Shown here in pieces: positions 30,624-33,420 of a DNA stretch of 64,000 bases (position 1 is the first letter of the stretch; every line of letters begins with the position of its first letter). The position numbers and the translations under genes were made by a program. Origin of the DNA: Rhodopseudomonas julia (GTDB taxonomy: Bacteria; Pseudomonadota; Alphaproteobacteria; Rhizobiales; Afifellaceae); contig NZ_JAUSUK010000001.1 in the NCBI RefSeq assembly GCF_030813515.1, forward strand, positions 372,001 to 436,000, given 5' to 3'. Under the pieces are notes generated by a model that worked only from the letters and a program-made list of their open reading frames with translations, searched no databases and was not told the origin of the DNA.

Positions 30624-31229
30624 TCACAGCCCCCGCCGGCCGCGCGACACGGCACGCGCCAGCATCGCCGTCATTTCGGCTTCAGACCGGCGGAAGCTCG
30701 CCGCATCTTGCGTCGTCACGTTGAAGGTGACGTGGACCGGCTGCGCCCCAGCACCCGCGGCCGCAACGCCGAGCCTTCCGTCGGCGCCGCGCCGCAAAGG
30801 CAGGATCGCCTCCGCCCCCGCCTCGCCCATCAGGCCGATGCCGCTGCCCGTCTGAAAATAGCTCGGCGCGGCGACGACCCCGCCCGAAGCAAAGGGCGTG
30901 ACCTTGCCGCCCGCAAACACCCCGCCCTTGGCGAAACCGCCCACAAACGAGCCACCAAGAAGCGAGCCGAACACAGAAGTAAGCGCGCCAGACAGCCCGC
31001 CGGCGATCGGCGAGAGCGCGGCAGTGAGCGCGCGCCCCGACAGGCCGAGCGCCAGGCTCTTCAAGACACTGTCGAAGCGCCTTCCCTCCACCGCTGCCTG
31101 ACGGAAGGCGCTCGTCATGGAGCGCCCGAACCCGTCCGCCAGATGCTGAAGGTCGCCGAGCGTCGCCGAAAGCGCCGTAGCACTTCCGGAGAGCTCGTCC
31201 GAGCCGAAATCGAAATCGTCTGCCATCAT
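30624..31229 (-). CDS. GTA gp11-like tail tape measure protein
   Basis: A 201-residue tape measure protein; the short length fits the short GTA tail. An N-terminal helical part (ATALSATLGDLQHLADGFGR) is followed by a Gly-rich hydrophobic segment (GGLSGALTSVFGSLLGGSFV), GVFAGGKVTPFASGGVV, and GLMGEAGAEAILPL. Two adjacent ATG codons are possible starts. It follows gp10.1 by a few bases. Confidence 0.9.
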   Translation of the reverse strand: MMADDFDFGSDELSGSATALSATLGDLQHLADGFGRSMTSAFRQAAVEGRRFDSVLKSLALGLSGRALTAALSPIAGGLSGALTSVFGSLLGGSFVGGFAKGGVFAGGKVTPFASGGVVAAPSYFQTGSGIGLMGEAGAEAILPLRRGADGRLGVAAAGAGAQPVHVTFNVTTQDAASFRRSEAEMTAMLARAVSRGRRGL

Positions 31230-31232
31230 GTC

Positions 31233-31484
31233 CTACCGATCGGGAAAGCGCGCTATCAGCTGCGCGAGCTCCCCCGCTGTGAGTGGGGTCTTGCCTGCGC
31301 CGAACAAAGCCGAGCGGCAGGCCGAAAACTCGCGCGGCGTCATCGCCCAGAAATCGCGTGGAGAAAGCCGCAGAACGGCGAGGCCAAAGGCGATCGCCTC
31401 CTGCCAGGGAAAGGCCTTCGCGGCCTCTCTCGTGCCGCCTTTCCTGCCGCCTTTCCTGCCGTCTGCGGCTAAAGAGGGTTTTTT
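31233..31484 (-). CDS. gp10.1 (rcc01693-like) tail-assembly ORF without a start codon, -1 frame of gp10
   Basis: The frame encodes FPWQEAIAFGLAVLRLSPRD, FWAMTPREFSACRSALFGAG and LAQLIARFPDR, the pattern of the small rcc01693 family that sits between gp10 and gp11 in RcGTA-type clusters. I read every codon from 31484 to the conserved FPW and found no ATG, GTG, TTG or CTG. The ORF is exactly in the -1 frame of gp10 and begins at a slippery heptamer seven codons before it would otherwise need one. Expression as a gp10-gp10.1 fusion of about 200 residues is inferred. It is the likely counterpart of the lambda gpG/gpGT tail chaperone pair. Confidence 0.75.
   Translation of the reverse strand, partial: KKPSLAADGRKGGRKGGTREAAKAFPWQEAIAFGLAVLRLSPRDFWAMTPREFSACRSALFGAGKTPLTAGELAQLIARFPDR
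31408..31484 (-). promoter_or_regulatory. Programmed -1 frameshift signal at the gp10 end
   Basis: The heptamer A AAA AAC (31484-31478) is in the correct gp10 phase (GCA AAA AAC), two codons before the gp10 stop. Eight bases later comes a GCCG-CAGA-CGGC hairpin (31469-31458). Further on, GGAAAGGC (31456-31449 or 31444-31437) can pair with GCCTTTCC (31415-31408). Heptamer, spacing and structure match known bacterial and phage frameshift sites. Confidence 0.7.
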
Positions 31485-31834
31485 GCGGTTCCGCCCGGAG
31501 CGTCGGAACCGCCGTCGTCCATCTGCGGAGCCCCGAAAGTCGCCCGCAAAAGCTCCGCGGCGATCTTTGCAAATCCCGCCGCCCCCCCGTCAGCGCGCAG
31601 CACCGCCACCTCGTCGTCTGTGATCGCCTCGCCGGCGCCCCTCAGACCCGCCCCCAGTATCCGGATGAGATCGCGGGCCGACAGCCGGCCCGTCTCGAAG
31701 CGCGCGGCGAGCGCCACCAGATCCTCGGCCTTGAAGGCGGCTTCGAGCTCGGCCAGGGCACCGAGCGTCAAACAGAGCCTGCGCGTCTCGCCGCCGAGCA
31801 CCGCATCGATCTCGCCGCGATGGGAATTCGCCAT
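31469..31834 (-). CDS. GTA gp10-like tail assembly protein
   Basis: A 121-residue protein of the GTA gp10 family (NSHRGEIDAVLGGETRRLCL, LGALAELEAAFKAEDLVALA, RFETGRLSARDLIRILGAGL, ITDDEVAVL). Its C-terminus GTAKNPL is encoded over the slippery heptamer. Termination gives this short form; -1 slippage would extend it into gp10.1. RBS CGGAGGCGGAG precedes the ATG. It follows gp9 by 12 bp. Confidence 0.88.
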   Translation of the reverse strand: MANSHRGEIDAVLGGETRRLCLTLGALAELEAAFKAEDLVALAARFETGRLSARDLIRILGAGLRGAGEAITDDEVAVLRADGGAAGFAKIAAELLRATFGAPQMDDGGSDAPGGTAKNPL

Positions 31835-31846
31835 CTCCGCCTCCGC

Positions 31847-32254
31847 TCACAACGCCGCAAAGGCGAGTTCACCGGCGGATTCCAGCGCCAGATCGTAGGC
31901 GACCTCGCCGTCATGCTCGCCGGAATACTCAAGCCCCGTCACCTGAAACGGGCCCGTCACCGTGCCGAAATCCGGGATCACCACCTGCCAGGCGACGATC
32001 GTGCCGGCAAAGAAGATCTCGCGGATCGTCGCGTCGCTCGCCTGGTCGCGAAACACGCCGGAGCCCGAAAGCCCGGCCCGTTTCACGCCCGCGCCCTCCA
32101 GAAGCTCGCGCCAGCGCCCGGCGGAATCGGTGTTGGTGATGTCGACGCTCGCCTGGTTGAACGAAATCCGCCTGGCGCGGAGCCCGGCGACAGTCACGAA
32201 TTGTCCGTCCCGCTCCAGTTTCAGGAGCAGGTCCTTGCCTTTCTGGGCACTCAT
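31847..32254 (-). CDS. GTA gp9-like major tail protein
   Basis: A 135-residue tail tube protein: MSAQKGKDLLLKLERDGQFV, VAGLRARRISFNQASVDITN, SGSGVFRDQASDATIREIFF. I start at MSAQKG (32254), after GGGAGA, not at the 14-residue upstream extension. It heads the gp9-gp15 block; the next gene upstream (SDR) is divergent, so this block needs its own promoter in 32255-32418. Confidence 0.9.
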   Translation of the reverse strand: MSAQKGKDLLLKLERDGQFVTVAGLRARRISFNQASVDITNTDSAGRWRELLEGAGVKRAGLSGSGVFRDQASDATIREIFFAGTIVAWQVVIPDFGTVTGPFQVTGLEYSGEHDGEVAYDLALESAGELAFAAL

Positions 32255-32333
32255 GATGGGTTCTCCCGCTGATTTCAGGCAGACGTTTCGGAGCACCGCC
32301 CGGGGGAGGCCGGCGAAGAAGCTTCGCTCAAGC

Positions 32334-32418: not shown

Positions 32419-33420
32419 ATGCCCAGTTCCCAGGCCCCGATCGGCTCCCGTTTCGGTGCCGCCTCCACCGCTGAAGAGGTCGTTTCCGGCATCAATCTCT
32501 CCGGCAAAACAGCGATTGTCACCGGCGGCTATGCCGGCATCGGCCTTGAGACGGTGCGCGTGCTTGCCGGCGCCGGTGCCGAAGTCATCGTCCCGGTGCG
32601 CGATCAGGCAAAGGCCGAGCACGCCCTCGCCGGTCTTGCGCGCGTCTCCTCGGCGCCGATGGACCTCATGGACCCCGCCTCCGTCGATGCCTTCGCCGAG
32701 ACCTTTCTTGCCTCCGGCCGGGCACTCGACATTCTCGTCAACAATGCCGGCGTCATGGCCCCGCCTTTGGCGCGCGATGCGCGCGGCTACGAATCCGAGT
32801 TCTCCACCAACCATCTCGGGCATTTCCAGCTGACGGCGCGGCTCTGGCCAGCCCTGAAGGCAGCCGGCGCGGCCGGCGGCGCACGCGTCGTGGAGCTCTC
32901 CTCGCGCGGCCACCGCTTCTCGCCCGTCGTGTTCGACGACGTCAATTTCGAGCGGCGCGACTACGACCCCTGGCTCGGCTACGGCCAGTCGAAGACGGCC
33001 AACATCCTCTTTGCGCTGGAGCTCGACCGGCGCGGCGAAAGCCACGGCGTGCGCGCCTTCTCGCTGCATCCGGGCGGCATCGTCGCGACCGATCTCGGCC
33101 GCCATCTCGATCCGTCGAGGCTGCGCGATATGGGCGCCATCGACGAGAACGGTGAACCGGTCATCGATCCGGCCCGCTCGCTGAAGACGATCCCGCAGGG
33201 GGCGGCGACCTCGGTCTGGTGTGCCGTCAGCCCGGATCTCGACGGCATGGGCGGCGTCTATTGCGATGATTGCGACATCGCCCCGATCGCGCCGGAAACC
33301 GCCGAAGACCCTGCAGACCCCGCGACGCGTCTGACGACCGGCGTGCGCGCCTATGCCGTCGATCCGGAAGCCGCGAAACGCCTGTGGACCCTCAGCCAGC
33401 ACCTCACCGGCCTCACCTGA
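32419..33420 (+). CDS. SDR-family NAD(P)-dependent oxidoreductase
   Basis: A 333-residue short-chain dehydrogenase. The Rossmann motif is TGGYAGIG, the core motif NNAGVMAPP, catalytic Ser region VELSSRGHRF and the catalytic YxxxK YGQSK. The C-terminal LHPGGIVATDLGRHL is typical of the retinol-dehydrogenase-like subgroup. It is encoded against the direction of the GTA genes and is not a GTA component. The substrate is unknown. Confidence 0.88.
   Translation: MPSSQAPIGSRFGAASTAEEVVSGINLSGKTAIVTGGYAGIGLETVRVLAGAGAEVIVPVRDQAKAEHALAGLARVSSAPMDLMDPASVDAFAETFLASGRALDILVNNAGVMAPPLARDARGYESEFSTNHLGHFQLTARLWPALKAAGAAGGARVVELSSRGHRFSPVVFDDVNFERRDYDPWLGYGQSKTANILFALELDRRGESHGVRAFSLHPGGIVATDLGRHLDPSRLRDMGAIDENGEPVIDPARSLKTIPQGAATSVWCAVSPDLDGMGGVYCDDCDIAPIAPETAEDPADPATRLTTGVRAYAVDPEAAKRLWTLSQHLTGLT

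Follow-up and report, generated by a model that had tools for sequence, protein, structure and literature searches.

Probable programmed −1 frameshifting between gp10 and gp10.1 in an RcGTA-type gene transfer agent cluster of Rhodopseudomonas julia

Known systems and the gp10/gp10.1 pair

Gene transfer agents (GTAs) are domesticated phages that ship host DNA. The G/GT frameshift of phage lambda was reportedly described by Levin in 1993 and by Xu in 2004. The lambda slippery heptamer is G GGA AAG. A review treats this frameshift in the lambda G/GT tail assembly chaperones and also describes E. coli dnaX, in which an upstream Shine-Dalgarno stimulator is a major feature, ribosomes slip on A AAA AAG, and shifting yields the shorter of the two products (PMC5009743). 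In Caulobacter phage phiCbK, the pre-tape-measure chaperones gp93/gp94 use a −1 shift on AAAAAAC, and GGGAAAC is the corresponding sequence in Colossus, according to the part available of that report (PMC3556154). The RcGTA genes g10 and g10.1 (g10.5) have been named tail chaperone 1 and 2 and treated as separate genes in a paper in which a look-up of the term frameshift gave no match (PMC11409702).

The preliminary description of this DNA knew of no report of such a frameshift in GTA clusters. Likewise, no report of frameshifting in GTA g10/g10.1 was found in the available parts of the literature searched, which mostly excluded subscription papers and is not proof of novelty (PMC8601537, PMC11409702, PMC10299305, PMC7296036, PMC3711429, PMC5009743, PMC10885494, PMC10783043, PMC8718954, PMC12846349, PMC3556154, PMC9765227, PMC9022992, PMC10721106, and PMC10127595).

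The pair studied here resembles lambda G/GT in its position between the tube and tape measure genes and in a putative −1 shift, late in the first gene, that would give a longer fusion. The lambda heptamer also matches 13 of the 83 slip loci examined here. Unlike lambda, the pair belongs to a GTA, its heptamers in the window are A AAA AAC and A AAC CCT, a Shine-Dalgarno-like stimulator is found in the locus set, and many gp10/gp10.1 orthologues use a start codon. The likeness to lambda drawn here is one of position and frame. With phiCbK gp93/gp94 the pair shares an alphaproteobacterial host, a putative −1 shift, and the same gene position, but phiCbK is a true phage, and its genes are likened to GTA gp10/gp10.1 by position and shift. 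RcGTA g10 and g10.1 belong to the same families as the genes described here, PF11836 and TIGR02216 (rcc01693 family). The likeness to dnaX lies in the Shine-Dalgarno stimulator upstream; dnaX, however, also has a downstream stem-loop.

The cluster and its junction

The window, that is, the whole stretch of 64,000 nucleotides that was analysed, carries on its minus strand a head-tail cluster with NF048004 GTA_megatron, TIGR02217-02219, capsid, prohead protease, and terminase. By gene content this cluster can be classed as an RcGTA-type gene transfer agent. Its order includes the gp9 tube protein, gp10 (PF11836), gp10.1 (PF09550, TIGR02216), and the tape measure, with the two small genes gp10 and gp10.1 between the tube gene and the tape measure gene. 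The assignment of the tape measure downstream of gp10.1 is also supported by phrog tape-measure matches. A host-type SDR oxidoreductase gene (32419-33420, plus strand) lies on the opposite strand between gp9 and the GTA head genes, and because it splits gp9 from the latter, the tail half may need its own promoter. The SDR gene also adjoins gp9 in Afifella marina (L003/L154, whose junctions are identical) and in L004. No such gene was found flanking L002, L006, or L007. The features around the junction are as follows:

31847..32296, minus strand: gp9, major tail tube protein, upstream neighbour (PF06199, TIGR02126)
31469..31834, minus strand: gp10, putative tail chaperone 1 (lambda gpG position), 121 aa, PF11836 Phage_TAC_11 with E 2.4e-30, TAG stop at 31471-31469
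31487..31501, minus strand: weak Shine-Dalgarno-like stretch GCTCCGGGCGGAACC 5' of the slip site, scoring 6-8 at spacings 6-13, below the good-match cut of 10
31475..31484, minus strand: slippery stretch AAAAAACCCT, in which A AAA AAC (31484-31478) overlaps A AAC CCT (31481-31475), both in the gp10 phase
31236..31475, minus strand: gp10.1 as it would be translated following a −1 shift, 80 codons, SLAADGRKGG...FPDR, an open −1 frame that lacks its own start codon
31413..31474, minus strand: −1-frame linker that contains a direct repeat of 12 bases and could form a hairpin, which is not conserved
31236..31412, minus strand: conserved gp10.1 domain FPWQEAI...FPDR (lambda T position), PF09550 with E 4.9e-16, TIGR02216 rcc01693 family
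30624..31229, minus strand: gp11, GTA tape measure protein, downstream neighbour, NF058675 RcGTA_tape with E 2.2e-50 and 171.5 bits, under the model cut-off of 220

The 3' codons of gp10 are GCA (31486-31484), AAA, AAC (31480-31478), CCT, CTT, and TAG (31471-31469), and GCAAAAAACCCT was found once in the 64 kb and in 0 of 100 shuffles. These codons agree with the preliminary description, which placed A AAA AAC at the gp10 end in the correct phase. Its choice of A AAA AAC as the heptamer needs revision, however, as the element kept in the family of the window is A AAC CCT (7/7 loci, L001-L007), whereas A AAA AAC occurs in 3/7. A slip on either would yield the identical peptide ..AKNP-SLAA.., and the predicted fusion, about 200 aa in total, joins gp10 residues 1-120 to SLAADGRKGG....

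The gp10.1 open frame spans 31589-31233 on the minus strand, with the PF09550 match at residues 60-118. No ATG, GTG, or TTG occurs in this frame 5' of the domain, as had been claimed, and the first ATG is residue 24 of the 59-residue domain. The second gene thus overlaps gp10 in the −1 frame and has no start codon. The −1 phase at the heptamer, also claimed earlier, was confirmed, but it was rejected as evidence in its own right because orthologues with ATGA overlaps have the same phase. The linker contains a perfect tandem 12-base repeat (GGCAGGAAAGGC twice, 31437-31460, minus strand) and is longer in the window than in L002 and L004.

Survey of related junctions

A total of 201 loci were collected from the genome itself and from relatives found by PF09550, GTDB contigs, and class genomes. 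The order-level search matched 246 of 397 genomes, and 30 loci and 116 places were used, the best by E among the matches listed; as these were ordered by E, weak gp10.1 domains are under-sampled. The class-level search matched 45 of 385 genomes, and 30 loci among the matches listed were used. Profiles of gp10 and gp10.1 built from the loci placed the pair in 199 of 201 (two had no gp10 match), and removal of five identical junctions left 194 distinct gp10/gp10.1 junctions. A junction was called start-less when no ATG, GTG, or TTG was present in the −1 frame between a point 30 nt upstream of the gp10 stop and the start of the domain, and gp10.1 was not in another phase.

Start-less junctions numbered 101, while 42 had an ATG near the gp10 stop, 15 had gp10.1 in another phase, and 36 had a GTG or TTG, a class that is ambiguous since CCT TGA by itself makes TTG. 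An in-phase X XXY YYZ heptamer was present in 86 of the 101 start-less junctions, compared with 9 and 9 in the two other phases. Elsewhere, an in-phase heptamer was found in 2/42 ATG, 0/15 other-phase, and 8/36 GTG/TTG junctions. Aligning the junctions across RcGTA-like clusters, a check proposed in the preliminary description, therefore shows that the heptamer recurs in start-less loci but is not universal, as 93 of the 194 junctions, from other lineages, use a start codon or another phase and do not share the overlapping, start-less arrangement of the window. Clusters with a normal start in a different phase, which had been named as grounds for abandoning the frameshift, do exist; they belong, however, to other lineages and mostly have no heptamer.

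The commonest heptamers in start-less loci were CCCTTTC (40 occurrences), TTTCCCT (28, usually overlapping CCCTTTC), AAACCCT (14), and GGGAAAG (14), followed by CCCTTTG (10), CCCGGGG (5), and AAAAAAC (4). Other lineages thus have C CCT TTC/G or G GGA AAG instead of the A AAC CCT of the window's family. Neither A AAC CCT nor C CCT TTC is known to be a well-tested slip site. Of the 15 start-less loci that lack a heptamer, 13 have only an in-phase C CCT, so that one or the other is present in 99/101. C CCT was in phase in 84/101 start-less, 16/36 GTG/TTG, 2/42 ATG, and 2/15 other-phase junctions. Start-less loci with a main heptamer span 23 of 57 family labels, and in other orders of the class the heptamer was found in 10 of 11 start-less loci.

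A second set came from viral contigs, which were searched with the alignment of gp10. From 586 relatives the best 80 were taken, together with two phage records, and after removal of six duplicates these 82 loci gave 76 new junctions, which come from another source, not another lineage, and were placed with the same profiles. The heptamer was present in 30 of 34 start-less junctions (2 and 1 in the other phases), compared with 2/21 ATG, 0/4 other-phase, and 11/17 GTG/TTG junctions. Both phage records (L232, L233) read CA AAC CCT TGA at the junction. In these records gp10.1 is annotated from an internal ATG (L232:1905-2063, L233:1884-2063), which cuts off the FPW motif, and other start-less loci may be annotated from internal starts in the same way. 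Many of the IMG/VR 'viral' contigs (L234-L313) carry RcGTA-like gp10 and gp10.1, and some may be bacterial GTA clusters.

Controls on the heptamer

Codon shuffles predict a heptamer in 32.0 of the 101 start-less loci, against 87 observed under slightly different bounds. When the PFPW codons were left out, 57 of 100 loci had one, against 26.1 expected. The gp9 end of start-less loci from both sets, compared at equal lengths, had a heptamer in 1/127 cases and the gp10 end in 109/127. With one vote per genus label, the heptamer was found in 42/52 start-less and 2/33 ATG or other-phase votes; with one vote per family label the values were 23/30 and 2/26. Independent contrasts on a tree gave five pairs on supported branches, too few for adequate power, with 3.0 for and 0.1 against (median p 0.25), a result in the same direction that is not significant. 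Shared ancestry is not fully removed by these controls.

In 57 start-less loci gp10 runs into the PFPW of gp10.1, and in 34 of these the PF codons are CCCTTT. Another upstream heptamer is present in 2 of the 34 CCCTTT loci versus 18 of the remaining 23 (4/34 versus 18/23 with wider bounds). Start-less loci with this overlap thus tend to have one slip site per gene. The same comparison in the second set involved 21 versus 2 loci (p 0.17).

Substitution patterns were compared in 31 non-overlapping pairs of relatives. Upstream of the site, third positions of the gp10 frame vary most (.319 vs.186 and.198), and downstream, third positions of the −1 frame vary most (.299 vs.186 and.163), a signal that comes largely from the gp10.1 domain. 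The linker alone has a weak switch in codon pattern (.302/.261/.205, 13 pairs). Between the slip site and the gp10 stop no switch was seen, with.167 at −1-frame third positions versus.243 and.189 (36-37 sites each). The junction peptide is KPS in 12 of 13 loci and KPL in the remaining one, a weak argument because the heptamer alone dictates K, P, and the first base of S.

Stimulatory elements

Stimulatory Shine-Dalgarno sequences lie 9-14 nt from the site for −1 shifts and 3 nt for +1 shifts, as stated in the available part of the review cited above (PMC5009743). Spacing was analysed in 107 slip loci, with the five CCCGGGG loci of the first set left out; these five C CCG GGG sites have no Shine-Dalgarno-like stimulator. 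At spacings of 7 to 19 nt upstream of the slip site the Shine-Dalgarno-like score exceeds that of codon shuffles, and z is highest at 10 and 13 nt (6.7 and 8.5). A good match at 8-15 nt was found in 59% of the 107 loci, versus 31% expected from codon shuffles. In the ATG class, the score peaks 4 and 6 nt before the ATG. An energy measure gave −7.8 vs −5.3 kcal/mol in the first set and −7.7 vs −4.7 in the second.

The preliminary description also pointed to a hairpin and a further pairing after the heptamer. A CCGC..GCGG hairpin does start 8 nt after the heptamer in the window and GGAAAGGC/GCCTTTCC are able to pair, but as a conserved stimulator the downstream hairpin was rejected. Shuffled sequences fold as well as the 78-nt stretch (z −0.19; a 55-nt piece gave −4.3), and the structure is not retained in relatives that have the same site (z +0.4 in L002, +0.7 in L004, and −1.6 in L003). 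No general downstream RNA structure was found in the 83 loci, with a mean z of −0.44 versus −0.35 upstream and −0.27 in ATG/other loci. By site type, the downstream z was −0.97 for AAACCC (13 loci), −0.74 for GGGAAA, and −0.27 for CCCTTT.

Alternative explanations

The gp10.1 gene might be initiated independently of gp10, from a non-standard start near the slip site or by restart at an internal GTG or ATG after gp10. Such a layout is suggested by the first internal ATG, GTG, or TTG of gp10.1, which lies within 4 nt of the gp10 stop in 44/101 start-less loci and in 22/34 of the second set. ATGA-type coupling is used in related lineages, and the two phage records are annotated from an internal start. 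However, restart would lose FPW, and this motif is kept in the −1 frame; its TGG is invariant in the 47 loci of the commonest layout although the T is a third position of the gp10 frame, and in the window a start at the first internal ATG would cost the domain 23 residues. Start-like codons near the site are rare: among 83 loci, the −1 frame between −15 and +3 holds one GTG and five ATC. The Shine-Dalgarno-like peaks are spaced as for a −1 shift rather than at the 4 and 6 nt seen before ATG-class starts. On the retention of FPW and the six start-like codons in 83 loci, independent initiation was rejected as unlikely. The heptamers could instead be coincidences of coding, arising from the gp10.1 PFPW codons or codon use, or the pair could be decaying. 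C CCT TTC does often coincide with the PF codons of gp10.1, and CCCTTT occurs at PF outside the overlap class as well (17/55 first-set and 7/34 second-set loci), but the frequency within the overlap class is higher (34/45 and 21/21). The excess of heptamers also survives the exclusion of PFPW, is absent from gp9 ends, and CCCTTT is kept where the motif became PFRW (7/21 second-set loci). Coincidence or decay is thus very improbable.

A slip by RNA polymerase on the run of six A in the window, giving mRNAs with a missing or extra A, would also bring the two frames together. Six A is short for this type of slippage, for which runs of 9 are given in the available part of the review (PMC5009743), and the orthologue sites A AAC CCT, C CCT TTC, and G GGA AAG have no A run. 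In addition, phase would be irrelevant to a polymerase, and the start-less heptamers are concentrated in one phase. Transcriptional slippage was rejected on these three points and has next to no probability.

A programmed −1 ribosomal frameshift very probably joins gp10 and gp10.1 as a tail assembly chaperone pair of the lambda type, which upholds the central claim of the preliminary description. The in-phase heptamers of start-less junctions, their near absence from ATG junctions, the agreement of the viral-contig set, and the positioned Shine-Dalgarno-like element all argue for it. It appears to be the best reading for the window and for many related alphaproteobacterial GTA clusters, not for all.

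Predicted structures

The gp10 model has a pLDDT of 77.9, but confidence is low over its tail, residues 103 to 119, where the slip site falls. The gp10.1 protein was modelled as a small helical domain. Neither model had a PDB fold match under E 0.001, and the best E of the gp10 profile against PDB sequences was 0.15. Matches of gp10 in BFVD reached a probability of 1.00 with TM of about 0.5-0.65 (1/233 at E <= 0.001), a weak resemblance to proteins whose annotations include both tail assembly chaperone and tail tube. In Pfam, PF11836 is named Phage_TAC_11 yet described as a tail tube protein, GTA-gp10.

Proposed mechanism and significance

Most ribosomes would read gp10 to its TAG and produce the short chaperone. 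In a minority, a backward slip of one base on AAAAAACCCT would carry translation on into gp10.1 and yield the gp10-gp10.1 fusion, about 200 aa long, in small amount. If lambda is a guide, many short gp10 chaperones may coat the tape measure protein gp11, and a few fusions may recruit the tube protein gp9 via the gp10.1 domain. The gene order, the reading frames, the missing start codon, the tie between in-phase heptamers and start-less junctions among relatives, and the positioned Shine-Dalgarno-like element in the locus set are observed; that ribosomes slip here, how often they do so, and what the two products do are inferred. In other lineages, an overlapping start codon couples the same pair instead.

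A GTA would be a new setting for this mechanism, which is known from phages, and other lineages couple the pair by a start codon. If the proposal is true, the widespread GTA gene g10.1 is misannotated wherever the frameshift layout occurs, either in its start or as a gene of its own, GTA producers make an unrecognised fusion protein that is likely needed for tails, and domesticated GTAs keep a phage-type recoding signal. Natural frameshift and start-codon versions would then allow a direct test of whether a covalent fusion is needed for tail assembly or only the ratio of the two proteins.

A broader proposal, which is tentative and taken as a whole rather doubtful, is that alphaproteobacterial GTAs have repeatedly switched the chaperone pair between frameshift fusion and start-stop-overlap coupling, so that the covalent G-T link of lambda would be dispensable, and that at the core of most sites a single proline tRNA slips from CCU to CCC with the aid of a Shine-Dalgarno-like element, not of a hairpin. 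Proline anticodons TGG and CGG were seen among 30 of the 43 tRNA matches scanned. On the best tree, itself weakly supported, there are at least 23 changes of layout. In four loci of one family (L017, L023, L060, and L131; family code f16), the gap from the gp10 stop to the gp10.1 domain is 230-300 nt, unlike most orthologues.
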